Positions 2,062-56,214 of a stretch of DNA of 64,000 nucleotides are shown piece after piece. Position 1 is the first letter of the stretch. Every line of letters begins with the position of its first letter. Location of the stretch: NCBI GenBank assembly GCA_963969395.1, contig OZ017795.1, forward strand, positions 29,617,063 to 29,681,062, given 5' to 3'. A program made the position numbers and the translations under genes. The stretch is from Pseudoscleropodium purum (lineage: Eukaryota > Streptophyta > Bryopsida > Hypnales > Brachytheciaceae). A model generated the notes under the pieces. The model was not told where the DNA came from. It searched no databases and saw only the letters and a program-made list of their open reading frames with translations.

Positions 2062-2115
2062 ATATTTAACTAATTATGGACAATTGCACAAATTATGGAC
2101 AAATTCATAGTCCAT
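2062..2115 (+). repeat. Left terminal inverted repeat of the 13.2 kb element
   Basis: The first 22 bases match the reverse complement of 15271-15292 exactly. A second, internal copy of AATTATGGACAAAT lies at 2091-2104 and continues into TCATAGTCCAT, matching the inner part of the right end with one change. The left end therefore looks like the right end plus a short internal duplication of about 19 bp. Confidence 0.75.
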
Positions 2116-2783
2116 AGCCACATTAAAAAAGGTAGAGAACATGCTTCAAATGATTAAAAAGTGTCGGTAGCCCACCCACACCTTGTTCAGAAGAACCGAG
2201 GATACAAAAAAAAAGTGGATTGTTGTATTTTGGACTGGTTTTTATGCAATAGCAGAACCGGTGCCTATGACCGTGCACCCATCCCGTGCCCATTGACATA
2301 TAGGCTGGCAGCCGATAAGATAGCACAGTAAAGTGCGCAAAACCAAAAAGCAGGACAACGAACAAGAAAGATAGAGATATGAGCAAATCACCTGTGCATT
2401 GAAGATAAAACAGTTGTAACATGGTCCCCATAGGAGATTCAAATAAATGTGATTTGTCAGCAGCCAACGGATACATATTAAAAATGTCAAAACTGACTAG
2501 TCATAAGACTTATAGTCACAACCTATAAGATATGAAGGCACACCCTAAAAGATATGAAGGCACATTCACAAATGAGTAAATATTGTGGATATGCATGTAA
2601 TCATCCTGAAGTGAAAACATCCTGTTCAAGAACCATGCGATCGACATGCAGCGAAGCCCTTAGTATCGGTTGGCAGTCCACACTTGCAGCGAGGACTCGG
2701 ATCCGTCTAGCAATGTGATGGTGACAGAACTCCAGAGCTAAACTATTGTATCGGCTGGCAGCCGATAGGTTCGAGGCGATATG

Positions 2784-5700
2784 TTAGTAATCCTCTCCGC
2801 CCTCGTCTGCATCTCTGTCCAAAGCTGCCCCCGCGGCCTCCAGATTCGCAATAGCAGCAACAACGGATGCCTCCGGGATGACATGAGATGTGGGAGGTCC
2901 TTTCTTTGCGTGCGAGGGCATTCTGTGCGAGTACAAGACAATGTTGACATGGACCATCTGTGGAAGACAGAGTTCCTTGTGCCATCTTCGGGTCCAGCAC
3001 TCCCTCGCAATGAGCGCTTTTGACTCCCTCTTGGCTTTCATCGGAGTCCACCACTCAATTTTAAAATTACCGTACGTGGGCCCCGGAGACATGTCCACAC
3101 ATTGGAGTACCCGTCCCAGCCAGCCAGGCAGATGATTGTTGTGACATGGTCAACAAAGAACAAAGTCTCCGAGCAGAACATCCCTGAATGGATTGAATCT
3201 CAAGCGCGGCCTGTCCTTCGCAGGTCTGCAGTATGGAGTGGGGTCCCCTTCGTCCTTCGGAGTGGTGCCTATTGAATAATTCTCCTCCGCCCCCTTGTCT
3301 ACAAAAGTCGATGTGTGATCTCTTGTCCAGGCAGAGAGCGGCCATAATCCTTCTTGAAGCAATGCAGGAGTTTAAGGCAGCGCCGAATTGATCTCCGATT
3401 GAATTCTTTCCCAGTAAGCCACACAGCCTGCCATTTCTTGTGCGTACCGTCTATCTCTGGCCATTCCTGATTTCCAGAACTCAATGAACTTTGCTATTCC
3501 GTTTTTGATGAATGTTTGTTTCTCATTGCACTCTGTAGCCCTTGCGACTTCTTTTTCTGCATTTCGCCTTCTGGTATTAATATCCACATTCCCCCAGAGT
3601 GCCTTGAAAGGCACAGGTCGAGGGTCCCCCTGTGGAATATTGGGTTGTCCATTTTCGTCCGCTGTCCACATTTTGACAGGTGCGCCAGGAGGCAGCCACG
3701 AAGAATCTATGGCCCTGAGCTTGTACCTCATGACCGGCCATCCACGATCCACACCATCCTCCACGACGTAGAACTTGAAGAGGTGTTTATCTCCGAGCCC
3801 GATGATTTTGTTCACCCCATCATGATGGAAGCCCTTGAAGTATGATTTGAAGTCCGCCACTTCTTGCACGAACTCCGGAATGAAGGCTATAGTCTTCTGT
3901 GAATCCATGAACGCCTTCATGAGATCCGCAAGTACGTATGTGTTCTTCCTTTTGATCAGTTTCGAGAGATAACTGAAGTGCGCATCAATGTCCTCGTGCG
4001 TATGCCCGATAATAAGGAACCCCACTGAAACTTCCTTGAATATGCGCCTGGCAGTGAGCAGTGAGCAGAAAGCCATGAGGAATCGATTTTTGTTGTCCTT
4101 TGCTGAATTATCGAGTTGCAAGAACAGTTTCCTCAGAAGTGGGACCTGAGGTCGTCCTGGTCTCGCTGCGTCGATCACCATGTCCAAGGCCTACGGGATT
4201 GACGAGTTGCATCTTGACTTCCCATGAAGCAGAGCCTCAAAGAAGGTGTTTAGCGGTGGAGTCGAGAAGAGGATCTTGGACTCCCGAACAGGTGGTAGTT
4301 CTAGGGCCCTGAGGACCCTGCAGATGGACAAAATTGTGAAATTTGAATCCCTAGGCCAGAGTGATGTGGAGTAATGTGCATACGCGCCATCTCCATGTCC
4401 ATGTGTGAGCATTCCAGTACACGAGATTGGTATTTGCCCTAGCCTTGCGGTGGCCTTGGTGATGCGCTGCATCCTCAGAATGGCAGTCTTTGTGGTGTCC
4501 ATTTTGTCATGAATAATGCAGAGGAACTCTGATGGATTTTGCACCAACTGCGCGGTCCATCCATTGTATACATTTCTATAAGCGCGCTGGTAAATGAGAT
4601 GTCTCTCTCTGTCGTCGACCAAAGCCTGCCACTCATCACAACCTCTTGGATACTTTGCAATGAACTCTACGAGGAAGTCACATTCTGTGCATTTTGAGAA
4701 ATTGCTCCCTACGGCCTTGACCTCTACGTTTTTGAAATGAGCATTCCGAAGGCGGCTGATAGCAGACTGCGAAACCGGCTTCATATTGCATATTCCATTG
4801 ACCTGAAGAACATGACTTCATGGATGAGTTTCCATGGAAGACTATAGAGTTGTATCGGCTGGCAGCCGACAGAACTGCAAATGACGACCTATAGAAAGGA
4901 AAGATCAATGGCTTCTACATTCAAAGTCCAAACATGATTGTATCGGTTGGCAGCCGATAAAAGGACTTTTCTATTGTAGACGAAGAGGCAGATGATGGAC
5001 TTACATAATTGACTTGTTCGCGCATGTGATCCCAATTCATTGCAGAGGGGAGGACCTTGAGATTGTCGACGCATTTATTTCCAACCATTCTGAACTTGTT
5101 TGGCATTTTGTCGGCATTGTCGTCGATGATCGTTTTGAGGGTTGCTTGAGCTTGGATTGTTTGTGGCCGTGGCCGTCGGGCCCCGCATTTCCATGCGAGC
5201 CGTTAACGGATCCTCCCACGGCCGCAGCCTTGTAAACATGATAGGCCGACCTCGATACCCCGTGAATGATATACCATGCGTTCTCGCAGATGTCTGTATT
5301 TGCAAGAGTAATGAATTTTTTTCCTGGAATAACCCCTGCATGAAGCTGACTCTGCACCGCATACGCTACCTCCCTCCTACTCTCGAATGTGCAAGCGAAG
5401 AACTTTCGTCATATAGACCTTGTGTCCTCCTAGGGAAACGTCTGGCAGCATCTGAGCTTACAGCACTTCTGTGAGCTGACCTTACGTACCTCCGTCTCCA
5501 AGGTCTTCATTTGCAGCCTAGATTGGCTTTCGTGATCCTTGGGAATCACCCTTCTGCGCACAGAGCGGTATGGATTCCTCGGTACCCCCTGCATTCCGTT
5601 ATCGTTCGACTCATTCAATAGAGCAGCCTCTGAGCAGAGCGTGACAATTTCAGATAGTAGCCTTCCACTCTCCAACCTTGTGTGTGTGAGCCTCCAGCGC

Positions 5701-6935
5701 ATGGTTGTCATTTGCAGTTCGTCATTGTCCAATACGAACATGACCCCGACATCCGTGTCGCCTAGGACGCCATCATCGCAGGCCTCATCTGGTAGGCAGA
5801 CTTGGATCATGGCTCTTCCGAGAACCGAAAAGTCGTCATTGAGAAGTTCACAGTATTGATTTCTCCAGAGCAATCTATCTGGGATTGGAAGCCCAGCTTG
5901 CATTCCATTCGGATGGCCATTATCTCCACTTTGAGTATCAGCTCTAAACGCGTCCGAATGCTCCATGCTGTCAACAACACTTGTGTCGGACACGGTAGTG
6001 CCAGAGGTACTGTAACCATGAACATCGCGGTGATCCTCTGCAGACCCGCGGTTGTCATCGTCGGATGAATAGAACCTATCATCTCGCTCATCTTCATCTG
6101 ATGCAGTAGGAAGTACTCGCTGTGTTCCCGGATCACATAATTCTACCTGTACATCGTTCGAACTCCCACCACTCTTGTAGTTACCATCGACTTGAGCCTG
6201 CATGAAATGGGTCGCAGGTTCTCCTGTCGGCTGGCAGCCGACAACCTTGGTTATTGGGACGGAGGTCTCGATTGGTCTGACCTTATAACCACTCCAGAGT
6301 ATTTTGAATCCAACACAGCGTTTGAGTGTCATGAATTCAGGAATCTCGCAATAAGCACTCTAATCCTGGAAATCATCGACGACGTGCAGTAGCTTCACAA
6401 CGAGGAAGAAGCTGTGTGGAACGCGAAAGCCTTCCCAGTAACCCTTCGGAGAGCATTGTACAATTGTACCTACACCAGCATACAGCAGATCCATGCCCAC
6501 AGTCTGCAATAGTAAGACATCCATATTGACAATGAGTGACAGGAATTGTTGTATGGGTTTTTCATCTGTGACCACTTGTATCGGCTGCCGGCCGACACCA
6601 ACAGAAGAAGACCCTTCAGACTCTACATAGGGATAGATGTTCTTTGCCTCCCACACAATTGACCTTCCCGGGCAGTGTCGCAGGAACACCATGTCTCCCT
6701 CAGGAAACGGAAGAGGCATATCGAGGTTATTTGGAACGTCTAGGACATGAACGCGTACGAGGTAGGGATCGCGGCTGACCACCCTTTCTACGATCGCCCT
6801 TCCGGAGTAGTATAATCCTTCCAGTGTAAGAGCCACAACAACTCCCTTCTGCATTTTCAGTCTTCTGGAGCCTCCATTTTTCGTGAATGCCTCAATAGGA
6901 CTCGCACCCGATGTCCAGTCATCAGATCCACTCAT
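2784..6935 (-). pseudogene. DUF7869-type, DDE-like transposase gene, five exons, broken by five in-frame stops
   Basis: Five exons on the minus strand join in phase 0 throughout: 6935-6627, 6503-6282, 6197-5490, 5429-5005 and 4802-2784. All introns are GT-AG. Exon 1 has an N-terminal module (QKGVVVALTLEGLYYSGRA, then SRDPYLVRVHVLDVP). Exon 4 has a zinc-finger-like C-x-A-W segment (ICENAWYIIHGVSRSAYHVY). Exon 5 has a C-x2-C pair (KCTECDF), then HDKMDTTKT, THGHGDGAYAHYS, LFLQLDNSAKDNK and GHTHEDIDAHF, which I read as an RNase-H-like core with acidic residues. A C-terminal module follows (NPFRDVLLGDF, then FKIEWWTPMK). Stops interrupt the frame at 6360 (TAG), 5409 (TGA), 4191 (TAG), 3372 (TAA) and 3150 (TGA), with no frameshift. 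The family assignment comes from recalled motif resemblance. Transposase activity is inferred, and this copy is probably inactive. Confidence 0.75.
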
Positions 6936-7909
6936 GATTTGAAATCGGAGTCAGAACCCACAATGTCGGAATCTCTGTCAGACCCGTGATGACCTTATCG
7001 GCTGGCAGCCGATACGTCTATGTACCTGTTGCTTCACGACCTTCCTGGTACACAAATTGGTATCGGCTAGCAACCGATACCACTATCCGTACGGTCAAGC
7101 AGAGGGGCAGGATTGTACAGCTAGAACTTTGGGGATCATGCACGAAGCTAGATTTTGCGCTTCCTATGATCTAGGCACTGTCCACAGATGCTCTGACCAG
7201 TAAAAATAATGAAATGGAAACACATGTGCAACCGAATAGGAAATCCTGAACCTCTGTTTGGCAACTAATTTTCGAGAATGCTCCTGCCTACTACTGCAAT
7301 TAGAATCCTACTGCAATTCAAATGTAGCTTCGAGCAATTCAAATCCCACTGCAAATCCTACGTAAGCCTAAACGCCAAATAACAACTGTTGGTGAGCGCT
7401 TCATGAACCCGGAGACTACTCAATGCTGCACTGAACGGAGGTCTATTGAATTCCCAGTCACGTTGCATCCCTCATAAACATTCCACAACAAGCCACTGCA
7501 ATTCCTGACGGTTCTTGGACGCTCTGAGTGCGTGTGTGGGGTAAATGAAAATGAAAATGGAAGTCCTCCAAGATCTGATCTTAGGTGAGCAAGCCTAAAA
7601 CTGAATTTGGCGCTTGAAATTTGAATTTGGAAGAGGATGAAGTTGTGGTGATTGCAAGAGAGACAAGTCCGTGCATCGGGAGATCGTGTTGGGAAACGTA
7701 CGCATCTCTGCAATGAGTGTTCGTAACTTCCATGTACTTTGTTGGATGTGGAGTACATGCTAACGGATGAAAACCTACGATGGATGAAATTTATGGAAGA
7801 ACGGACTCGGTTTGTCATGATTGCGCCTACCAGCTGGCAGCCGAGGGTTTAGGAGGTATACACCCCTGGCCACTTTCATTTTCTCTCATTTGCCATTTGC
7901 GTCTCCTGC

Positions 7910-7972
7910 TCTCTCTCTGTCACTCACTCTCTCACTCACTCTCAGCCTCACTCACTCTCACTCTGCCATTCT
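7910..7972. repeat. CT/CACT-rich microsatellite
   Basis: Runs of CTCT and CACTCT repeat units occupy this stretch in the divergent control region. On the plus strand this could be a pyrimidine-rich leader or core promoter element of the rightward gene. No coding meaning is suggested. Confidence 0.6.
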
Positions 7973-8019
7973 CCCTCCAGTCCGGCTTGCAGCTGACATC
8001 CCGTCGCAAAGCTAAGTAG

Positions 8020-8131
8020 CAGCCGATACATCCTAGCGCAGCCGATACGCATTTCTGGCTAGCCGACAGTGAAGGAGAGCGAGGCAAGCGTGCTTTTTCA
8101 GCAACCGACAAGTCATCTTCAACAGCCGATA
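8020..8131 (+). promoter_or_regulatory. Cluster of five same-orientation palindrome half-sites
   Basis: Half-sites CAGCCGATA (8020, 8039, 8123), TAGCCGACA (8060) and CAACCGACA (8102) all read in the same direction, without a matching left arm. They lie just upstream of the rightward gene. Elsewhere in the element the same arm almost always occurs as half of a full palindrome. The cluster looks like an operator or binding array. That function is inference. Confidence 0.55.
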
Positions 8132-8373
8132 AGCGACAGAGGCCATTGGCGATGGCGTCCTCCGATTTGGCGACTGAGAGGTACTTTTCACTACATGTAT
8201 CGGCTGGCAGCCGATACACTATCATTTGCTATATCATATAGGATAGCCATTGAGATTCTGAGGCACCTATTACTTGCTATATCGGCTGGTAGCCGACATA
8301 CATTTCAGCACTCACTAGGAGCCTGAGCTTAAGCTATGTCGGTTAGCAGCCGATATGATCCCAGGACGATTGA

Positions 8374-8671
8374 CATAGGAATTTCTAGAAATGTCTTTCA
8401 ACGGTAGGATTTAGGGACTGAGAGGTTATATCGGCTGGCAGCCGATACAGTGGATGCACAAAGTGAAGGTGCATAGTGTGAGTGTACTGAGAATTCAATT
8501 GTATTGTTTTGTAGGAAACCGACTTAGGAATTTCTAGAAATGTCTTCCGATGGTAGGGTTTAGGGACTGAGAGATTGTATCGGCTGGTATCCGATACAGT
8601 GGATGCACAAAGTGAAGGTGCATAGTGTGAGTGTACTGAGAGTTCAATTGTATTGTTCTGTAGGAAGCCGA
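8374..8671 (+). repeat. 149 bp tandem duplication, each unit with one palindrome
   Basis: The segment from GGAATTTCTAGAAATGTC through TGTTTTGTAGGAAACCGAC recurs 149 bp later with few differences. Each unit holds one palindrome (8429 and 8578) and ends in a TGTAG acceptor-like site. The second acceptor opens the first recognised exon of the rightward gene. The unit may be a duplicated intron end, which would give two alternative acceptors. Confidence 0.8.
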
Positions 8672-10092
8672 CTCTCTTGGCCCGCCTTTTGGGGAAGCAA
8701 ATCCCAAACTCTCGGATATTGGGAGACGGGTATCCACCGAGGGCAACATGGCGAGCGATCGAGGCCATCCAAGAATGGGGTCTGTGTTGGAGGCAGTTAC
8801 CCGACACGACAGTGGAGATCGTATGCTCCTTCAAGCTGAAAGGGAACATGACCCCTGGCAAAGGAAGTGTATTGTCCGTCATGGCTGTTGGCGATTCCGT
8901 GCACGTCATGATATGCTTGATGCCATTGGGAAGCACGGATGGAGTTGCCGATTATTTCGCGGTGGAGTTGCCGGTGAACAAGTGCACGGAGGAGGTCTGC
9001 GGAGAGAAATCAATGTCGATGGGCATGACGTTCGAGGGAAGCACGCCGTCCAGTATAGAGGAGCTCATCCAGGGCTGGGAGTGCTTGAAGATAGAGCGCG
9101 ATGAACACAATGCGTTCATTGCTCGTGAATTGGAAAAGGGGAAGAAAAAGGTACCCTCGGCGAGGAAGCAAGTGGCGGCGAGAGTGACTGAAGACGCTGC
9201 TACTGATCTGCAGGAGACCGGGTTGCCCAGCAAACCGAAGAGAAAAGCGAAGGCCAGGGACGACCCCAACAAGCCGCTGAAGCTGACACTCGACGAGGCA
9301 CTCCGGTGTGGAAATCATCTCACAACCAAGATGAAGGAGAACGAGGTGAACGCTATTTACCACGCGTTGGAAACGGGGCTCCTGCACGCGTTTCCTTACA
9401 AAAAGCAGCGACTTCCGGGGGTCATTCACTCGGACAAATTCCACATTGCACCGGATGAGTTGAAGTACCGGAAGATTGCAAAGGACCGACTTGGCCAAGT
9501 AATTCGACGATCACTTCCATCCTTTACTGGTTTTTATCTTCCCATATAATGTATCGGTTGGCATCCGACATCTGTAGTTGGTCTATAATATTTTGGCCTT
9601 CTCTCAATTCAGGTGAAGACCATGTACAAGGAATACGGGTCCATCAGGAAGAAGCCGGAAATCCATGGGATTCCTCTGAAGCGGGCTCCACTGCCAACGG
9701 ACAAAGGGCTAGACGCCGTGATGGACGAGTGTCCCGGGATGCATCAGACTATTGTTGTCGACGGCATCTCAATGCCGTGGTGGAAGGCGCCAAATGTCCA
9801 CTGGTATATCATCGGTGGGCAACACACAGTGACGGCCTGTCGAGAATTGGCCGAGCAATATCCAGACGGCTCTGAAGCCAAAACCGACCTCCTGGAGTTC
9901 GAGGTCATTCCGGTATTCAGTAGAGACCCGGACACACTCGTCAGAGTCTCCAATGCCCTCAATCTCAACATCGCGGAGAAAGTGGCAAAGGAGACCTTCA
10001 GATCCTACGCAGAGATGGGAAGAGCGGCGTGGGTGCAGGCGGGGTGCCCAGAGCCGCATCGTGGAGGTGGAAAGCCGTCAGCAGCATTTGAG
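8668..10092 (+). CDS. Transposon gene, N-terminal exons: ParB/sulfiredoxin-like protein
   Basis: Two exons, 8668-9498 and 9613-10092, join in phase 0 through an intron (9499-9612) that carries a palindrome. The first exon gives about 277 aa with no domain I recognise. It includes a basic, nuclear-signal-like stretch (KPKRKAKARDDPNK) near the middle. The second exon has VHWYIIGGQHTVTACRELAE followed by RVSNALNLNIAEKVAKETF. This layout matches the ParB/Srx fold, in which a G-x-H/R motif in the nucleotide-binding loop precedes an N-rich helix. ParB-type proteins act as CTP-dependent DNA clamps or nucleases; no such activity is shown here. No helix-turn-helix is evident directly after it. The start codon is not identified and probably lies in an upstream exon. 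It could be a distinct Srx-fold protein. Confidence 0.55.
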
Positions 10093-10204
10093 GTAATTCC
10101 CACGCACCTTTATTTTTTTCTCCCTTTTGATTAATATATTATGTATCGGCTGGCAGCCGATACCATTCTCGCATGTTCTAAACATTGCGGTGGAACTCCT
10201 CCAG

Positions 10205-11519
10205 GCTACGAAGCTGAAGGGTGATGGCGCACTTCGTGGATGAGAAGGTGTCCTCCAAGTTGCCCCTCATCTTCATCAAGGAGACCACCTGGGTGCTATG
10301 GACGGAGGTCTTCGATGCGTGGGAGAACGGGGAGCTTATTGGAGATGATGGGACTGTGCCGAATCTCCTCGTCAATCAGAAGCCGCTCACTCACATCACC
10401 AAAACGGATCTCACGCCAACGCTGGGGCTTCGGGATTCGGATCTGTGCGAGCTAGGGCGGGAGATCGTTGCACTTCGCATGAGCATCAAGAACACCGCGA
10501 AGGCCAAGTCCTTGGGGAAGATCACTCTCTTCGACTGGTGCAAGGACAAAAAGCTGGACAGGATCATCATGAATGAGATCATGTGGACCAGGAAGAAGCA
10601 TCCTCTTCCCTGCAAGGACCACAATTGGACCCCATATACTGACGAGGATTGGATGGAGCTTGCTGAAAAGGAGAGGTACTCAGCGGCCGTAGTCCAAAAC
10701 GTCTAGAAGGACATGATGAAGTTCACGGACACCAATAACTGGTTGAAGGGGCGAGTGAACCCTATGAATCCAACGACGGACAAGTCAAAGGATGGCAAGG
10801 CGCCGGGGGTCTTCTTTACAACGTTGGCGAACTACACCAAAGTCGAATTGCCTCCGACGCGCGGGAAGTCCGCTGAACTGAAATACGAATGCTATGTCGG
10901 AGAGAGTATTCCTGAGGTGGTCGACTTCGTCCGTCAATCGAAGGGGAATATGGCGCTGGAACCCGAGGACAAAAAATTCATTGTCCTCTTTGGGTATACA
11001 GATATGGGGGAACGGGTTCCAGTGAACAAGAACGATCTACTCGATCTAGCACTGGCCGCTGAAATCCCTGAGGTAGACGATCCAAATATTGAGGAGACCG
11101 AAGCGTACATCCCCCTGCCAATGCTCCTTATCGGGAACACGCGTTTCCGAGATTTTGTCGCGACGGCCTCGTACTCGTCCTTGTCCTCCTGGTACTACCA
11201 TTCGGTGTACTATCAACCATCTCCCCGTGGAGGCTTTCAGAAGGCGGAGATTGAATCCATGCCTTTGGTCACTCTGTCCTTGACCTTCCCGAAGCCCGAG
11301 GACAGGTCCAGTATTTTCCCGGTCTTCAAGCGCTTCACTGGGATCAACAAGGCACCCGACTGGTTCAATGTCGACGTTGAGGGCGAGGTCGACTGGAATG
11401 GCGGGATGTACAGGGTTGGTCATGGACTTCTAGAGAAACTAATGATGCCGACCCTAAAATCCAAGGATGCCACCGTCATCAACATCTGGGGGGGTGGGAA
11501 CGTCACGGAGATTGCTCTG
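10205..11519 (+). pseudogene. Transposon gene, middle exon of unknown function, with one in-frame stop and a probable frameshift
   Basis: This exon follows the palindrome-bearing intron 10093-10204. Read in phase 0 it closes after about 12 codons, while the frame with good coding character (VDEKVSSKLPLIFIKETTWV) is shifted by one. A small indel near 10225-10240 is therefore likely. At 10704 a TAG interrupts the frame between AAVVQNV and KDMMKFTDTNNW, with coding character on both sides. The remaining 270 residues contain acidic stretches and end WGGGNVTEIAL at a GTAAGT donor (11520). I recognise no domain. By position it belongs to the same transcript as the ParB-like exons. Confidence 0.5.
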
Positions 11520-11607
11520 GTAAGTTTTCTTATCCCTTCCTCACATTTGCATTGTTCAGAGGAAGTGAAATCCTGTCGGCTGGCAGCCGATACAACATGT
11601 TACTCAC

Positions 11608-12453
11608 TTGTACTCCATGGATTCGCCGAGGAATGGGCGGGCCGTCATGGAGTTCGTTCGGGAGGAGGACGGATTGCAGAAGGCCACGGAACGTGTGAGG
11701 GGAATGAACCTCGTCTCCTCGGCTTCCTTGGGACCTTCTTCGGGGAAGCCTGTGCTGACAGACCGAGGGGGTGCAAGTGGATCGGAGCAAGTGTCGCCTG
11801 CGGCATCACATCAACAACCGCGGCCGATCTCGACCCTCAATCTGACAGAGACTCCGGTGGCGCAGCGGCGCGGAGACGGCTGCAGGGTCAGTCTCAGGAG
11901 CGACCAAAAATTCAGACGTTTCTGATTGACTCAGACAGTGATGACACCCCGGAAGAGACACTCATCCGAAGGCAGCGGCAACGAAGTCCTTCATCTCCGC
12001 GGCATTCTCTCAATCTCCCCACGGCTCCAAATTTGGAGACGCTCAGGATGCTCCGACCGGAAAATTCATCGGTCGCAATGGTCGTGGACTTGCACGTTCA
12101 GCCACCGTTAGAGGAGATTCGCAGGATTCCACAGGCTCCAGTGGTCAGTCCTGCGACAGAGCCTCAAGTGGGAGTCACTGCAATTGGCCACCCAGCTACT
12201 GCAGCTGACATTAGTATCGGCTGCCAACCGACAGCCATGGTGGTTTCCCCGCTTGAACCACGACGGGGGAGAAGCAAGTCGGCCACGCTCGAAAAGGAGT
12301 CGGAGTCGGCGGACTCGCGGAGGTCAACTCGGGTTCAGCAAAAGCGGAAACGACCGAGTGACGAGGAAGACGGTGGCACGGCGGCGCGGGAGCAGGACTT
12401 CCCAAATGAAGCAATGTCTCCCGCTCGATCTCAGAGGCGGGCTCAGACTAGAG
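11608..12453 (+). pseudogene. Transposon gene, basic Ser/Arg-rich disordered tail exon
   Basis: After the intron that starts at 11520 (palindrome at 11574), coding character resumes at YSMDSPRNGRAVMEFVREED. No clear AG acceptor is present just before it, so that site may be lost. Near 11860-11900 the coding frame appears to shift into one giving FLIDSDSDDTPEETL and RSTRVQQKRKRPS, an acidic then basic low-complexity segment with a likely nuclear signal. It ends at donor 12454, and joining to 12690 keeps phase 1. A palindrome at 12215 lies inside this frame (read as IGCQPT) without obvious splice sites, the only copy that may be translated. Confidence 0.45.
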
Positions 12454-12689
12454 GTTCGTAGGCGATAGACATGCTCCGCGATGTTTGTGGAGTATCTAAA
12501 ATAGCTCATGTATACGTAGCACTGCCTGGCTCAAACTTGTGCGTAGACTTGTCAGTAGGAGCCTTCATCTCGGCAGACTAGAGTACTTATGGACTATGTC
12601 GGCTGCCAGCCGATACGGTGCACGAATGTTTTGTTATGTACCTAGGTTCATTGCTTCTCATGCTCTATGTATTTCGTTTTGCAATGCAG

Positions 12690-13558
12690 ATGATGACTCC
12701 AAATCTTCTGAGAAATTCCCCGCCACCGCGTCTGAAGGTGGGCAGGAGTGTGACAAACCAGCTCTAGAAGAAAGGGCAGGGAAAACGTCTAGTGCTAGCC
12801 CGTCTCAGGTAGCGACTCCGAAGTTGTTTCTTTTCCTTGAGGTTCAGGGAACTCTACTCTTCTATGAGCCCCTCATTTTTAAAGGGAAAAGTATGCATCA
12901 GAGGTCGCAAGTAAGACCTCGACCAGGTCTTCAGGAGTTCATCAGGTTCTGTAAGGGTCAAGACATTCAGATCGTTTATTGGTCGCATTTACCCAAGAAG
13001 ATTCTTGAGCAACGTCTTCATAACCTGAAGTGGATGGTGCCAGATATCGAAGACGATTACCTAGCTTTTGGACAGGAGTACTATGACGAGAGTGCTTATC
13101 GAGACCTTCAGAATCCCACACGACCAATTTTTCTGAAGCGTCTCGCAAGGATTCTCGCTTCATCCTCCTTGTACGATAATGGGGCCATGATCAACAACTC
13201 ATTGATCGTGGATCACGAGCCCTATCGGAACGTTTTGAATCAGCCATATAGTGCGATTCATCCACCCGCGGTTATTATGTATTCGGAGGGTTCGCTGAAG
13301 GGTGGAAAACTGCCTTATCTCTAGGCGAAGCTCATCCCGTTCATTGAACGGTTTTTGTCTTCGGGACTCACGGTCCCAGAGTTCTGTCTAAAGAACTCTT
13401 CATTTGGGAGTGCACGCTGTATGCCGGGCTCTCTTCTTCATAATCAGTTCGTGAATGTAACACCGCTATATCAAAAGGGATTCGAGGTGCTATATTCACT
13501 GGAGGAGCTGCAGGCCATGGGAGTTCCTAGCCCACGGGTCCTAATGGAGGAGGCATAG
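12690..13558 (+). pseudogene. FCP1/NIF-type HAD domain 1, catalytically degenerate
   Basis: The exon begins after ATGCAG and reads DDSKSSEKFPATASEG, then LFLFLEVQGTLLF, where HAD motif I (DxDGT) would be. The nucleophile Asp is Glu and the second Asp is Gln. Motif II is IVYWSH, and the motif IV region is NSLIVDHEPYRNVLNQP, which fits plant FCP1-like phosphatases. A TAG at 13322 splits the frame before AKLIPFIERFLSSG, and the frame then ends with TAG at 13556. A palindrome follows at 13561. It is fused or adjacent to the ParB-like gene. With both catalytic acids gone, a binding or scaffold role is likelier than phosphatase activity (inference). Confidence 0.6.
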
Positions 13559-14008
13559 TGTATCGGCTACCAGCCGACACATATTTCTGTAGATTATATA
13601 TATTCTCTGTAGATAAAGGAGGACGTCTAGAGACTACATCTTTTGTGTACATTATTTTCTTTTGTATTGATTAATCAATTTTCTTGTAATGAAGGCATTT
13701 CAGTCCGATTTTTCCTAAAACTTGCGCATGGGACACTCACTCTCAAGGCATTCAAATGTTTCCTTTGAGAGTTTCAGCATTAGGTCTTGGTCATTCTAAT
13801 CAAATGATCGCAATAATGTAGGTGCAGGCATTCACTCATCTGTGCACAATCTATCTGGCACTTTTTGTTTGTTTCTCAATATGAATTATTGGCTGCTGTC
13901 TTGTGTCAGGCCACAGTATCGGCTACCAGCCGATATCAACTGGCTTGTCTTCTTTCAGTGGATGTTGATGTTGTATAATCTTGTAGCTATTAACTCATGT
14001 TCTGTTCA

Positions 14009-14657
14009 GGAGTCCAACGTGGGCCATCCACAGTCGTTCAAGAAATGTGTGGTTCTATGCGTCACAGGACTACTTTGTTATCTCGACCCGAATATCGAGG
14101 TGGACAAGTCGAACCCGCACAGAAATGTCATTAAAAGGCCAGGGCTAGTTGCAATGTTCATGACACTGTTTGAAAAGTTCCACGTAGGAATTTGGTCCAG
14201 GATGCCAATAGTGGATCTTAGGCCTCTGCTTGCGCACTTACTTCCAAAACATGTCAGAGACAACCTAGCGTACGTTTATGGCAGAGAGTACTGTGTAGAT
14301 AGCCAGAATTTCCCGTGGTGCTACAAAATGCTCTCAATACTTCACACTAAGAGACCATCCAGGATGACATGCTTCACGGACCAGGTGCTCATGGTCGATG
14401 TGTGCCCGCTTTCGCTCAGGAGGACGCCGGATCCGGCGTGCTATATTCCGCTACCATTTACGGGGGATCTCAATTTCCCGAATAGTAGTAGAGTTATTCC
14501 GAACATTTCAACGGATATTATTCCATTCATTTATCCTATGCACGAACATGAGTCTGTCTCGGAATACATAAAAGGCGCAATCAGACCGGGACAATTACAC
14601 TATGAGGTTGCACAGTCAATCAAGTACAGGAAGCCAAACTGGAATGGAATATTCTAG
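14009..14657 (+). CDS. FCP1/NIF-type HAD domain 2, catalytically degenerate
   Basis: The exon follows an acceptor TGTTCAG; the intron or leader upstream carries a palindrome at 13917. Motif I reads CVVLCVTGLLCYL, so the usual LDVNGLL has lost the nucleophile Asp (now Cys). FEKFHVGIWSRMP is the motif II region and QVLMVDVCPLSLRR corresponds to motif IV. It ends KYRKPNWNGIF before TAG. It is a diverged second copy of the domain at 12690-13558, uninterrupted in this window. Whether it is the last exon of the same gene or a separate gene could not be settled. Confidence 0.6.
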
Positions 14658-15260
14658 TGATTTACCCTACATGGTGTCGGCCGCCAGTCGATACCTTTGT
14701 AGACTGGAATCGGGGGGGGATTCAATACCTTCCAATCTTGTCCCCTTTACCTTATTCCCAAATTTGAACGGCTTTATTGTTAACGCCAGTATTATCGAAT
14801 CGATTGCCTCTTCACTTCAAGACCTGTTCTCTGGAGTTTTCTGGGGGGGATATCGGCTGCCAGCTGATACGAGCAATTCAGTTCATTGGATCGGATGGAC
14901 TCAAGGTTTAGGGTTTAAGGAGGAGCATTCGTTGCTCTTCATCTTACAGATGGCTGCCATAGTCGATTTTCATAGTTTACGTAGTGCAAACACTTTCATA
15001 GATCTAGGTGCTTTAGAGAATGATGTTAGGAATCGATTGGCAGTATCAAGCGCCAGCCGATACTTTGTTCCAAATTTGGACACAGCATAGGAGCTTATGA
15101 AATTATTCATTTAACTACTAATTGTAGGCTCTGAACTCAATAACTTGCCGTGTATTGTGGTACTTTGGTTTGTTTAGTGGTTGCGTCCATTTCTGTTCAT
15201 TGCTTATGACACACAAATCTATGCATTCGACTTTATCGGCTGACGGCCGATTTATTTTTG
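14658..15260 (+). other. 3' flank of the transposon genes, with four palindromes
   Basis: Palindromes at 14675, 14851, 15044 and 15234 lie here, all more diverged than the internal copies. At about 14906-14924 there are two adjacent telomere-like units (TTTAGGG then TTTAAGG). A 162-codon open frame (14602-15090) translates three palindromes and shows no protein-like character. Confidence 0.55.
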
Positions 15261-15292
15261 GACTATGGATTTGTCCATAATTAGTTAAATAT
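15261..15292 (-). repeat. Right terminal inverted repeat of the 13.2 kb element
   Basis: The reverse complement begins ATATTTAACTAATTATGGAC and goes on AAATCCATAGTCC. It matches the left end over 22 bases, then again over the inner segment. The sequence to the right (15293 onward) is unrelated to the sequence left of 2062. Confidence 0.75.
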
Positions 15293-17739
15293 CAATTGTT
15301 TGGTGCACTCCTAACCATTAGGCGAGATTTGAGGGCAATAAAAGGCCATTTTGGGCCTCTTCTTCCACAAGGTATAGCTGGCTGGCTGGAAAAAAATTTT
15401 AATTCTTAAAATGCAAAAAGAAGTTGAGTTTGTTTTTTAAATTTGGGAAATGACATGGCACTCTCTTGACCAAGTCAAATTGTGCTGTTGGTTGCATTTA
15501 TAGCATGTTCACAACATTTTTGGGGTTGGGGGACTTGTAGCCTTGATTTAGCCTCAAAAATCCTCTATTGATCCTAAATATTTTCCCATTAACCTTTAAA
15601 GTCCTTTAATCCTAAAAGTCCCATTGTCTATTAACCCTTAAAGTTCCATTGTCTCCTTGAGGGACAAATTAGATTTTGGGCAAGTTATTGTAACTACAAT
15701 TTTTGATGAATTTTTTTAAAACTTTTCCATAAGATAGAAAAATTGATTAATTATGTGAGAATATATACTTCATTATTGAACTTTGAATTGGTATTGTCAT
15801 TTTATTTAATTTTTATTTCAATTGGAGCTTAGGAGCAAAAGTTATACCACAAAATGTTTGAAATTGAACTCAACAAGTAATTTAAAAATATCACAAAAAA
15901 TCAAAATCAATCCTATTTTTTTTGCTTAAATGTTATATTTTTGTCATCATGTAAAGCTTTGATTTTTTCTATTTGGACTAATAACGAGAAAATTAAGGAC
16001 AATCTTATTTTTCGAGCAATTTAAGCATCTTTTTGAAAAAATAACTTGTAGGATTCATTTTCCATAATTTTTTTAAGAATGTTATGTTTGCTCGCTAAAA
16101 TAATCTCACCATTGGGATTATTGTCTTTCAATCCCATCTTGGAACTATTAACGATTTAGTTTTATTTTAATCTTGGACCTACTTCTACTTAACAATTTTT
16201 TATAGAATGAAATCAAGTGTTTTCTTTTAGATTTTTTTTCTTAGACTTTCAACTCAATTCTTCAACATAAAAAATTATAAATTCAAAATTTGTAGTGCAA
16301 AAAAATTCCACAATTGGTAGACAAAGTCATTTGAAATTGCAAGCTAGTGTTCAAAAAAACTTTCTTTTTCAACTTTGAATGCTAATATCTTCCAATCTAT
16401 ATTATCAAACTTCATGAAATTTTTACAACATAAGCTAGAACAAGTGAAGTACAAGATCTTATGGTTAGTATCTAAAAATAATAATTTTTTTTGTTTTCTT
16501 TGGTGAATGCAACAAAAATGGCCTTGAGACTAAGGATTATTCATTTAGTTTTTCCCTCCATTATACATTCACTCATACTTTACAATTTTTTAAAGAATAA
16601 AAATCAAATTCCTATTTTGAATTCTTCTTCTTAGATTCTAGACTTAATTATTCAACATAAAAAAACTCAAGAATCAACAAAAGATGAAAGCCATGAAATA
16701 AACTTTTATAAAAAACACACTTTTACAAAGAAACATAAAAAGAAAAAGTAGTCAATTAATTTAATCTTTGAACCTCTACATTATGTATCTTGGAACTCCA
16801 ATGATTGATTGGATTGAGAAATAATTTGAAACAAAGTGTACTCTATAATACTGGAAACATTCTTCTACGATCTTTACAATGCTTAAAATTAAATTATGGC
16901 ACTTGAAACATTTCATTGAATTTAAAATAAAAACATTTTTTAAACATAGTAAAAAAAAAAGGTTCTACTTTCAAAAAATTCTTTAAATCAATTCATATCT
17001 ACTTGGACATATTGAAACTTGGTTTTCAAAATAATGAAGAAATTTCTATCACATAATTGCTAATTTGTTCTTTATCATGAGGGAGAATTATCTTCCTATA
17101 TTACTTTAAAACAAATATTTACAAACCTTGTTTTTAATTGTAATATAGCAAATTGAGTTTTATGTTGATAATGTAATCAAGAATAAAATAGAAACAAAAT
17201 TTGAATAAAAAGAAAGTATGGATTTATAAAATAGAAAAAATGCATAAAAATTACCACTACTAGAAGTCCCAATAGAAATTTGTCATGTAGATCTTTTCTT
17301 TAGACCCACTCATGTCTACTTAAATACACTAATACCTCATTTTTAGTACGCTGAAGAAATTCCTATTAAACAAATTACTAATTTCTTACAATCAATAAAA
17401 CTACCTCTACATATTACGTTAGACCAAATATTATACACATACTTTAAAACTGAAATGTAATTGAATTCCGTTTCAATACAATCAAAAATAATAATGGAGA
17501 CACAATTCTAGTATAAATAAATATACCAAACTCATGGTTTTACAAGAGAACTAATTAAAGATGCATGAAACTACCAATAGAAGAAACACCTACATGGTTG
17601 ATTGTAAAAATGACCCACAAGAAGACCCATAGGACAAACTTAACTATTAGTGGATTTTCTAGTAGTCACTTCCCAAGTCTAAACCACCATTCCTACCATT
17701 GATTTACTAATTCCCAATGCTTTTTTAGATATACTTAGA
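15293..17739. other. AT-rich intergenic DNA, no gene seen
   Basis: This is long A/T-rich sequence with no coding character on either strand. At 15327-15343 there is GCGAGATTTGAGGGCAA, similar to the ends of the small repeat at 27624-27873. It may be a solo end of that family. Nothing else is recognised. Confidence 0.5.
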
Positions 17740-18640
17740 ATCTCCAATATTCCTCCAAATGATGGTCTATCAATAGGATTGGATAGCCAACACCTACTTA
17801 GCAGTACTCATATCCATCCATCAACATACTTTGGTACCTTTGACCTTTCTCCTACCAACACATGATCAAAGTCATTTTGCCTACACTCTTCAAATGGAAG
17901 TTTCCCTATCAAGATCCCATAATACATCATTCCATAACTATAGACATCGGCTTCTTTCGTAAACAATTCAACCTTGTCATTGATACTATAATCCTTGCAT
18001 GCTTGCAATATTTCAAGAGGCCTCAAGAACCCTATTCCAATAACTCAAATGGAACACTCATAATCTGCCACACAACATGTCCAACCATGTTCAAATTGTG
18101 TACAAAGTACATTTGATGCTTTAAGATCCCGATGAATAAAACCATAGTTGTGCAACCACTCCATTCCCATGGCAACTCTAAACATAGTTGCTTCCACATG
18201 AATATTGACAACAATCCTTCCTTGTTGTCAACATGAGACAATCAATCCGATGTCACAAATCTTCATGTTCCTTGACCATCAAGAAGGCAAACCAACCATC
18301 TTCCAATAATGTTCCACAGTACACCACACGTTTAGACCTAGTTTTAAGAAGATTACCATGATGTGCCCATTCCATTCTATCCACATGGTCTTGCAACATT
18401 CCAAGAGGCCACTATAATTGCAATTGATGCAAAGAAGTCCCCTTCTTGAACACCTTCAAAGCCCACTTCCATCAAAGTCTTAAGTCTTGCTCATTCCTCC
18501 ACGGATCATTCAAATGGATCTCTACATCATAAAGCTCAACTTGCCCACCTTCAACAAACTTTTGACCCATCACCAACTCATCATCTCCATCTTTACCAAA
18601 AGGTCAAGAAGAAAGTACCCTAGTTGGAATGCAACTACAA
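17740..18640 (-). pseudogene. Decayed serine/threonine protein kinase
   Basis: Read leftward in several frames, kinase subdomains can be recognised. They are VEGGQVELYDVEIHLNDPW (about 18560-18500), GMEWLHNYGFIHRDLKASNV (about 18170-18110; intact HRDLKxxN catalytic loop), VADYECSI where DFG would be (Asp of DFG lost), TKEADVYSYGMMYYGILIGK (about 17965-17905) and a final RCWLSNPIDRPSF segment. Frame changes and stops between these blocks show it is a relic. The wording resembles a kinase family I associate with mosses. The conserved HRDLK beside a lost DFG suggests the ancestor may already have been atypical. Confidence 0.65.
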
Positions 18641-34300: not shown

Positions 34301-35169
34301 CATTTGAGAGCGAGCGAGGGAGCAGGACGGAAGGGGATTTGTATAGACGACGACGCGCGTGGGGGCCTTTAAAGCATGTTCGCAGCCCTAGTTCGAAGAG
34401 AAGCTCCCCCTCTTTGCCGCTCCCTTTGCTACTTCTACTACGACTCTTGCTCCTCCACCTCCTCCTCCTCTTCCTCCTCCTTTCCTCTTGCTCCTCCTCT
34501 TCTTACACCGCCGTCGTCGTCGTCGTGGTCCGCCTCCACCGCCGCACTGCCGCCCGATCGGCGACGAACGCCTGGATCGGTACGTTCCGCCTTGTATTTC
34601 TTCTCGCTGGTTGGTTTCCATCGCCGCTCGCGTTCTTCATCTTCTTCTTCTTTCTCCCCTTCTTCTTCCCCTGTCTGGCTCTTGCCGTTCTTGCGAGACC
34701 AATCTTGCGCCATCGCGTCCCGTATTGCGCCGATTAGGGTTGGAACTCGGCTCGGCGCTCCGCTCCTGGCTACCCTCGGTTTTGTCGGGAGATGCGATTA
34801 GGGCTGCACTCGTAGTCGGTGGATTTAGAGCGGCGAAGCCCTGGTCGTCAAGGTTTTTTTGGTGGAAGCTTTTTATTGTTTTGTTTTACTTTATTGATGT
34901 CTTAGTGGTGGTAGTGGTGGTGGTGCGATTCGGTGTAGAGCGTTTGAGTGGCGTGAGTGTTCTTGGTTGTGATTTGAACTTGAGTGTGTGAGATCTTGTT
35001 TGTTGGTCTGTTGGTCTGTTTGTTACTCAGTTGGTTGTGTGTTCGTATATTTTTTTTGTTTGATTTTTTGTCTGTGGACTGTGGCTGTAGGTTCTAGTTT
35101 TGGTTAATGTGATTTGAGTTGACAGTGTCGTGTTTTTCAGGTGAGGGGGGGAGATTGTAGTGGTTAAAA
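34301..35169 (+). promoter_or_regulatory. Promoter, 5' leader and leader intron of importin beta-1
   Basis: A CT-rich leader (34420-34570, CTCCTCCT-type runs) is followed by a likely leader intron. Its donor is GTACGT at 34580 and its acceptor TTTTTCAG ends at 35140; a TTAGGGTT telo-box-like sequence lies inside at 34734. The spliced leader then runs GTGAGGGGGGGAGATTG to the start codon at 35170. Long leader introns are common in plant housekeeping genes. The long frames here are low-complexity translations, not genes. Confidence 0.6.
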
Positions 35170-38100
35170 ATGGCGCTAGAGGTGACGCAAATACTTTTGA
35201 ATGCTCAGTCTCCCGATGGGACAGTGCGGAAGATTGCGGAAGATAACCTTAAGCAGTTTCAGGAGCAGAATCTTTCCTCTTTTTTGGTGTCTCTGTCACA
35301 CGAGCTCGCCAATAACGACAAGCCACCGGAGAGTCGGAGGCTCGCTGGATTGATCCTAAAAAACTCGTTGGATGCCAAGGACAGTTTGCGGAAGCAAGAG
35401 CTTGCGTCGCGATGGGTGGCATTGGACCCCACCGTGAAAGGGCAAATCAAAACGGCTCTTTCGCAGACTTTGTCTTCGCTAGTGGCGGATGCTCGTCATA
35501 CTTCGGCTCAAGTTATTGCCAAGATTGCTGCTATCGAGCTTCCTCAGGGCGAGTGGCCCGAGCTTGTAGGATTTTTGTTGGCTAATATGGGAGGGCCCCA
35601 ACTAGAGCAGCCCTCGCATTTGAAACAAGCAACCTTAGAAGCTCTTGGTTATGTATGTGAGGAGGTCTCTGCGGAGATACTCGCTCAAGAGCAGGTGAAT
35701 TCCATCTTGACTGCTGTAGTTCAGGGCATGAACTCGTCCGAGACGAGTAATGATGTTCGACTTGCTGCTACGCACGCTCTATATAATGCCCTAGACTTTG
35801 CTCAAACTAACTTCGAGAATGATATGGAGCGCAACTACATTATGAGGGTGGTTTGTGAGACCACCCTCTCACCAGATGTCCGAGTGCGGCAAGCTGCCTT
35901 TGAATGTCTAGTCTCCATTGGCTCCACTTATTATGATAAGCTTGCCCCGTACATGCAAGAACTTTTTGCGATTACCTCGAAGGCAGTGAAGGAAGATGAG
36001 GAGCCAGTTGCTCTTCAAGCGATCGAGTTTTGGAGCTCCATTTGCGATGAGGAGATCGAGATTCAGGAGGACTACCAAGGTGATTTCTCGGGCGATTCAG
36101 AGGTGCCTTACTTTCAGTTCATCAAACAGGCGTTGCCTGCCCTCGTACCGATGTTGCTGGAAACGTTGACGAAGCAGGAGGAAGATCAAGATCTAGAGGA
36201 AGGGGCCTGGAACTTGTCTATGGCTGGTGGGACTTGTCTGGGCTTGGTGGCTCGAGCTGTCGGGGATGATGTTGTGCCTCTTGTCATGCCCTTCGTTCAG
36301 GAGAACATTTCAAAGGCTGACTGGAGATGTCGAGAGGCTGCTACCTACGCTTTTGGATCCATTTTGGAGGGACCTTCGCTGGACAAGCTGACTACTCTTG
36401 TACATGATGCCCTTCCCTTCATGCTGCAAGCAATGAAAGACGAGAACAACCATGTGAAGGATACTACAGCTTGGACCCTAGGAAGGATCTTTGAGTTCCT
36501 ACATGGTCCTTCTCTCGAGGCTCCAGTTATTACTCAATCCAATTTGACCACAATTTTAGCTGTCCTCCTGGAGGCCATCAAGGACACACCTAATGTTGCT
36601 GAGAAGGTCTGTGGAGCAATCTATTTCGTGGCACAGGGTTATGAAGAAGGTGGTCAGTCGTCATCTCCTTTATCTCCGTTTTTCCAGAGCATTGTGCAAG
36701 CCTTGTTGGCAACTACTGAGAGGGAGGATTCTGAAGATTCTCGGCTGCGGACATCAGCATACGAGACTCTCAATGAAGTTGTTAGAATCTCAACGGAGGA
36801 CACTGCACCGATTGTTATGCAACTGGTGCCCGTGATCATGCAGAAGCTCAACGTTACTTTAGAGATGGCCGTGCTTTCTTCCGATGACCGAGAGAAGCAG
36901 AGTGAATTGCAGGCCCTCCTGTGTGGTGTTTTACAGGTGAGTTACTTCTCTCGACTCTTCTGTAGTGTGTCGACTGTCTGTTGTAAAGCCATTTTCCCCC
37001 TCCCATTGTCTTTTGTGTTGCATCTTTAACTTTCTTGTACATGTATTCCACAAGCACGATAGTTTATTGTAGTTCTGTTTACTTCTTGAATTACTTGCAG
37101 TTGCTGTGTTTTTCTTTCCGCGTATTCATATACTTTCGAGCTCACACGGTCTTCCGTTTGTTATATGCAGGTCATCATTCAGAAGTTAGGTGCAGCAGAG
37201 GTGACAAAGTATGGTGTTGTACAGTATGCCGACAATATGATGGGCTTGTTTCTTCGCGTCTTTGCTTGCCGCAGTGCCACTGTCCATGAGGAAGCTATGC
37301 TCGCAATCGGAGCGTTGGCATATGCAACAGGTGCAGGGTTTGAAAAGTACATGAGCGAATTTTACCGGTACTTGGAAATGGGTCTCCAGAACTTTGAAGA
37401 ATATCAGGTATGTACACGTTAATTGTTTTACATTACCTGTTGCCTTGCACTAGCTTCAAATAGATTTAGTTTTAGCATGGGTGGTGTTAATTTCCATAAC
37501 CTTGGACATCAGGAAACAGGGTTCAACTCATTTCGACCCTTCATTTATGTTCCTGTGAGGATAAGTGAAGCTGTTGTTTTCTTTCGTTCCTCAGTATTTC
37601 CTGCCATTGGTGCTAATTGGGTTGTGACAGTTAATTTCCGGAACTGCGATGGTTCTACATTCAACTGTCTTTGACTTACGTTTACTGAATCGGTTTGGTG
37701 TTTGTCAGGTCTGTGCGGTGACAGTTGGAGTAGTCGGTGATATATGCCGCGCTTTGGATGAGAAGGTGTTGCCATACTGTGATGGTATTATGACTCAGCT
37801 TCTGAAAGATTTGTCTAGCAACCAGTTGCATCGCTCGGTGAAGCCACCCATTTTCTCATGTTTTGGTGATATAGCCCTCGCTATCGGAGAACACTTTGAG
37901 AAATACTTGATTTATGCGATGCCCATGCTCCAAGGCGCTGCAGAATTATCTGCGCAACCATCAGTGGGTGACGATGAAATGATTGATTACAATAACCAGC
38001 TCCGAAGTGGCATTTTTGAGGCATATTCTGGTATTTTCCAAGGTTTCAAGTCGAACAAAGCCGACTTGATGGCGCCTTATGCTGCACACATTCTTCAGTT

Positions 38101-38605
38101 TATTGAGAACGTGTATCAGGACAAAGACAGGTATGATGGATAATCATTTGCCTCTTGTATTTTTTGTTGTTAACATTATTGTTATCCAGGCAGCCTTTTA
38201 ATAAGGGTCGTTGCATCCTAGTGTGGTTGGTAGTGTTAGTAGTTGCTTTTCAGTCTTCCTACCATAGTTCTTGCTCTTGAACTGAAATTTGAACTTTCCA
38301 TTAATATACTATTGAGAACGATAAGTTTGTCCTCCTAACCCAGGAGGAATTGCTCACAATGGGCAGATAAATTGTTTCATTGCTGTTAACATTCATTTGT
38401 ATGTTGCAGGGATGACGTGGTTACCAAGGCTGCAATCGGAGTAATGGGTGATTTGGCTGATACACTTGGAGCTAATGCAGCAGCCCTGTTTAAGCGCACT
38501 GTGTTCTACAACGATTTCCTGGATGAATGCACATCGTCAGATGATCAGCAGCTGAAAGAAACGGCTGAGTGGGCGCAGGGCACTATTAAACGCATATCTG
38601 GATGA
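35170..38605 (+). CDS. Importin subunit beta-1 (nuclear import receptor), four exons
   Basis: Exons 35170-36936, 37171-37407, 37709-38130 and 38410-38605 join in phase to 873 aa, the full family length. The protein binds importin-alpha/cargo and RanGTP and moves through the nuclear pore as a solenoid of HEAT repeats. The start MALEVTQILLNAQSPDGTVR, then AEDNLKQFQEQN, is the importin-beta N-terminal Ran-binding region. HEAT-type repeats follow, including the acidic EEIEIQEDYQGDF segment and NNHVKDTTAWTLGRIFEF. The C-terminus ends LKETAEWAQGTIKRISG. All introns are GT-AG. One 1.77 kb exon holds two thirds of the protein. No damage is visible. Confidence 0.95.

Positions 38606-47026: not shown

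Positions 47027-56214
<9,188 letters not shown>

Follow-up and report, generated by a model that had tools for sequence, protein, structure and literature searches.

The question raised by positions 2062-15292 of a 64-kb stretch of Pseudoscleropodium purum DNA (contig OZ017795.1; the whole stretch is hereafter the window) is whether the genes and short palindromes found there belong to a single mobile element and, if so, what the palindromes are for. A first-pass annotation had taken the interval for a self-contained transposon with accessory genes and of a perhaps undescribed kind; the element and its accessory genes are supported by the results below, whereas a wholly undescribed kind is not. 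We conclude that the interval is a real multigene DNA transposon of ~13 kb with terminal inverted repeats (TIRs), present here as a decayed copy.

The sequence ATATTTAACTAATTATGGACAA at 2062-2083 has an exact inverted match at 15271-15292 (22 bp), and by eye the match extends to 33 of 34 bp when a 19-bp tandem duplication in the left TIR is skipped, so the inverted termini and their inward extension are as originally described. The left TIR lies at 2062-2114 (plus strand) and the 34-bp right TIR at 15259-15292 (minus strand); the duplication (about 2083-2102) is present in the left TIR only. Allowing ≤3 mismatches, the TIR core has three matches in the window, every one at these ends, compared with 0.05 expected. 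Both edges also carry ATAT (2062-2065 and 15289-15292), which may be a 4-bp target-site duplication, in which case the element proper would span 2066-15288 with TIRs starting TTAAC. Because ATAT is self-complementary, its assignment is ambiguous, and it could possibly be part of the TIR or reflect a TA duplication. The GC content per kilobase is 43-55% inside the element vs 25-33% in the flanking kilobases (1001-2000 and 15001-18000). Thus, the reported sharp GC change does exist at both ends, but it is local rather than unique, because the first kilobase of the window (44%) and the region at 34-37 kb (48-50%) are also GC-rich. The CpG observed/expected ratio is 0.82 within the element, 0.64 on its left, and 0.57 on its right.

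The interval also carries the palindrome T(A/G)TCGGCTG(G/C)CAGCCGA(T/C)A, of which we count 26 copies inside the element and none outside, as the annotation had stated of this family. A search with a 15-bp form (≤3 mismatches) yielded 26 matches, all inside the element, with 0.35 expected in the window, while a 19-bp form (≤5 mismatches) yielded 27 inside and none outside, and the two scans have 25 sites in common. All counts given here refer to 26 of the 27 sites from the 19-bp scan, the weakest (2455, five mismatches) having been dropped; site 7980, found only in the 15-bp scan, is likewise not counted, and both of these lie outside the coding set. The 26 palindromes span 2299-15252 without an assigned strand and start at 2299, 2664, 2749, 4853, 4941, 6225, 6579, 6996, 7061, 7828, 8198, 8280, 8337, 8429, 8578, 9552, 10144, 11574, 12215, 12597, 13561, 13917, 14675, 14851, 15044, and 15234. 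The coding sequence supported by homology covers 4,979 bp and contains none of them, where 9.8 would be expected, nor is there any in the 6,501 bp obtained by adding two HAD/NIF-like open reading frames (ORFs) (12.8 expected), with the caveat that the probabilities attached to this avoidance assume independent sites even though two of them lie in one tandem duplication. One palindrome occurs in each of three introns of the accessory gene, two occur in the mapped transposase intron, and eight occupy the region between the divergent genes (6951-8811, unstranded), which also contains half-sites and a 149-bp tandem duplication (8372-8669, 92%) with one palindrome per unit. The central base on the plus strand is G in 17 of the 18 sites left of 12 kb, such that most palindromes up to this point share one orientation, whereas to the right it is C in seven of eight sites and A in the eighth. 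This switch at ~12 kb does not coincide with the point at which the genes diverge.

As had been proposed, the genes form two divergent sets, with a DUF7869 gene on the minus strand and an accessory gene plus the HAD/NIF-like ORFs on the plus strand. The DUF7869 gene runs from ~6.9 kb down to 2784, and its coding sequence is backed by relatives at 2784-4799 and 5008-5501, with weaker backing up to 5942. Its main coding part (2784-4799, end stop at 2784-2786) is separated by an intron with approximate boundaries (4800-5007, containing the palindromes at 4853 and 4941) from one or more upstream exons (5008-5501), which are homologous to P0085 and P0086 and contain internal frame changes and stops, making their splicing approximate. 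A probable N-terminal part follows at 5502-6950, where the protein encoded by a distant DUF7869 contig (L001) aligns weakly to 5942 and open frames continue to 6950. The annotated DUF7869 affiliation was confirmed by a Pfam profile score of 113.7 bits, the cut-off being 26, making the gene a clear member of PF25273, a domain of unknown function. In total, 152 relatives were found and 120 listed; among the matches listed, the best is 77% identical across the whole query. In-frame stops interrupt the gene at 4191-4193 (TAG), 3372-3374 (TAA), and 3150-3152 (TGA), all at positions where the aligned relatives are open, and the TGA resembles a single transition from an Arg codon, which would have been CGA. 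Judging from these stops and another in accessory exon 3, this copy is decayed and not active.

The RNase-H-like layout suggested for the DUF7869 protein is borne out by its predicted fold, as a structural model supports an RNase-H-like (DDD/E) core of the transposase type. In the model of P0003, acidic residues that may form the catalytic triad are found at D82/D85 on the strand 76-84, at D214 just after the strand 208-213, and at D254/D256 in the helix 253-268. D214, D254, and D256 are ≥90% conserved in alignment A3, whose listed columns do not include the first acid; in A1, this acid reaches the same level of conservation. Pfam scans of P0003 and P0085 (to E 10) and of the L001 protein (to E 1) returned only DUF7869 and chance rows. 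No Pfam family of Tc1/mariner transposases (Mos1, Metnase, and Sleeping Beauty) was matched in these scans, and the present element is also much larger and multigene; the MULE transposase domain of Mutator-like (VANDAL) elements was likewise not found in the scans of the same three proteins. DUF7869 is absent as a term from the literature searched, and the element supports a transposase role for this domain.

The accessory gene lies opposite, on the plus strand, with exons at 8812-9498 (homologous to P0128), 9613-10092, and 10218-11519 and with a less certain fourth, the segment 11520-12461 comprising a palindrome-bearing intron of approximate 3' boundary and then the probable exon 4. At least seven relatives were found. 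Exon 3 is interrupted by a TAG at 10704-10706, where all five relatives reaching this position have Trp, so that it looks like a single transition. The annotation had described this product as ParB-like, an assignment that we regard as weak: exon 2 does encode a weak box-II-like motif (GGQHTVTA), but there was no significant match for the gene in Pfam, PHROGs, or NCBIfam, and the sole annotated tblastn matches named ParB have E values of 2 to 6. It should be noted that the Pfam test is insensitive, because it also misses two proteins that carry a ParB annotation. The C-terminal NIWGGGNVTE in exon 3 resembles, by eye only, N4/N6 DNA methyltransferase motif I; methyltransferase comparisons gave no support, and the exon-3 structure model was unusable (pLDDT 42).

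We also examined the palindrome in relatives, which are seen as proteins from gene calls running into introns; those with read-throughs encoding it are 44-77% identical. The exact palindrome is encoded six times in total in the intron read-throughs of P0002, P0122, P0125, and P0128, compared with a mean of 0.19 over 300 shuffles, only one of which reached six. The read-through of P0002 corresponds to the transposase intron at 4800-5007 and encodes one exact palindrome and another with one mismatch; P0123 also encodes a one-mismatch copy. The read-throughs of P0124, P0126, and P0127 do not encode the palindrome, and looser scans of the relatives' proteins were not convincing. A sister lineage has a variant peptide at either the gene head (13 proteins) or the gene tail (5 proteins), indicating two different introns, although these are close copies viewed from proteins. 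More distantly, L001 is a 4.3-kb contig (1-4327) with an uninterrupted 947-amino acid DUF7869 ORF, the best segment of which shares 34% identity with P0003; the contig is filed under a cyanobacterial Synechococcales metagenome-assembled genome, of which it is probably a eukaryotic contaminant. It contains a palindrome of wholly different sequence but similar style, with seven copies (≤5 mismatches), all outside the ORF. Another distant DUF7869 contig (L003:4972-5149) has an 89-bp tandem repeat with palindromes near one end.

Being dispersed, sequence-conserved, lineage-specific, and outside of coding DNA, the palindromes have the properties expected of docking sites for an element protein, and we infer that they are candidates for such sites. 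We find it about evenly balanced whether the locus is a decayed, DUF7869-mobilized TIR transposon that also encodes an accessory protein recognizing its own palindrome, likeliest the ParB-like one, for the purpose of anti-silencing. Under this proposal, the DUF7869 protein, with its RNase-H-like core, would mobilize the element, while an accessory protein of the element would recognize palindromes kept in introns as well as intergenic and terminal spacers, and could thereby coat or mark the element along its full 13 kb with the coding sequence untouched. The likeliest binder would be the ParB-like product encoded opposite the transposase strand, because the Sola1 transposon of Ectocarpus carries a ParB-like/DNA-methyltransferase protein opposite its transposase. 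Its likeliest use would be to keep the element expressible despite silencing by the host, whose marks it would displace or overwrite, modeled upon either VANC in Arabidopsis or the proposal made for the algal ParB-methyltransferases. The binding, the identity of the binder, and the anti-silencing role are all what we infer from these patterns. We also put forward, tentatively, a further-reaching version in which a ParB-like protein of prokaryotic derivation binds lineage-specific, parS-like palindromes maintained by selection in the introns and spacers of the element that encodes it, so that all 13 kb would be marked against silencing by the host, with protein and palindrome coevolving such that each DUF7869 lineage would have its own mark, a second and independent VANC-like invention.

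In favor of the transposase as the binder is L001, which has a DUF7869 gene and its own palindrome, yet no accessory-gene relative was found on this 4.3-kb fragment. Thus, the transposase remains a candidate binder, using the palindromes as element-wide sites that would serve synapsis or let it repress its own promoter, similar to subterminal motifs but dispersed. The eight of 26 palindromes located between the divergent genes would suit such a role as well, but the sites are not clustered near the ends and instead run through mapped introns to mid-element, and on a contig as short as L001 the accessory gene may lie beyond the end; we place this explanation on the unlikely side.

The remaining alternatives dispense with a binding protein or with the element itself. 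That each of the four mapped introns contains at least one palindrome might suggest RNA or DNA hairpins, for example aiding the splicing of short introns, but this is improbable, since the majority of palindromes lie outside of mapped introns, those of L001 flank a gene with a single open frame, and relatives keep the sequence itself beyond its pairing. We see still less chance that they are small mobile or introner-like insertions accumulated in the element: a 19-23-bp unit is indeed repeated, with two copies in the 149-bp tandem duplication, but no palindrome occurs elsewhere in the window, the flanks beyond about 23 bp are weakly alike (32-42-nt families, 62-81%), and L001 has a different palindrome. 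Finally, with a single copy considered here, the interval might consist of unrelated genes between chance inverted repeats, but we find this scarcely credible given a palindrome family that reaches across the two gene sets and to either end without passing beyond the TIRs, the local GC step at both ends, and the 152 transposase relatives.

Downstream of the accessory gene are the HAD/NIF-like ORFs 1 (12692-13558) and 2 (14001-14657), both on the plus strand. The duplicated HAD-like domains previously reported held up for ORF 2, which scores 27.1 bits against the Pfam NIF cut-off of 21.8, but not for ORF 1, which falls below it (17.6 bits). By eye, the catalytic DxDx(T/V) motif was not found in either ORF; where it would be expected, the sequences read LFLEVQGTLL and VVLCVTGLLC. 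Since no relatives of ORF 1 were found, its TAG at 13322-13324 may be its true end. Elsewhere in the window are two host genes, an importin-beta gene (35161-38140, plus strand) and a USP7-like exon encoding an ICP0-binding domain (50803-51258, minus strand).

How, then, does the element compare with known systems? The annotation had named no plant DNA transposon superfamily with this combination of domains, but the pairing of a transposase with a ParB-like protein is already published for Sola1-1_Ec32, and the element is therefore not a new kind. Sola1 transposons generate 4-bp target-site duplications, with which ATAT/ATAT is compatible but ambiguous, and our comparison is by description rather than by transposase sequence; we claim neither that the element is a Sola1 nor that its accessory protein is a ParB. 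Sola1-1_Ec32 is a giant (21.5 kb) Sola1 transposon of the brown alga Ectocarpus with a ParB-like/DNA-methyltransferase protein opposite its transposase, and in the view of the authors, proteins of this type may bind the transposon that encodes them and modify it (PMC12477816). As far as the accessible part of that description goes, both elements are large and combine a transposase with an opposite-strand ParB-like accessory gene, whereas the algal accessory protein has a recognized DNA methyltransferase domain not found in the moss element, and dispersed palindromes, present in the moss, are not mentioned. VANDALs belong to the MULEs and are not known to carry ParB-like or HAD genes. The VANC motif of Arabidopsis VANDAL21/VANDAL6 is dense and in one orientation, occupies introns together with non-coding DNA between the genes and at the termini, and has evolved in part through tandem duplication, with each lineage having a different motif (PMC5735166, PMC10398659). 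The moss palindrome is similarly placed, is mostly in one orientation to 12 kb, and has two copies in the 149-bp tandem duplication. The VANC21 motif is 9 bp, and binding is proven for VANC, while for the palindrome it is proposed. The novelty lies in a palindrome that runs through the whole element and seems to be specific to its lineage. For the ParB-like accessory proteins of giant transposons in eukaryotes, self-binding has so far been no more than a proposal, and the palindrome offers a concrete DNA sequence as their candidate target. Should it be such a mark, sequence-specific anti-silencing would extend beyond VANDAL elements.
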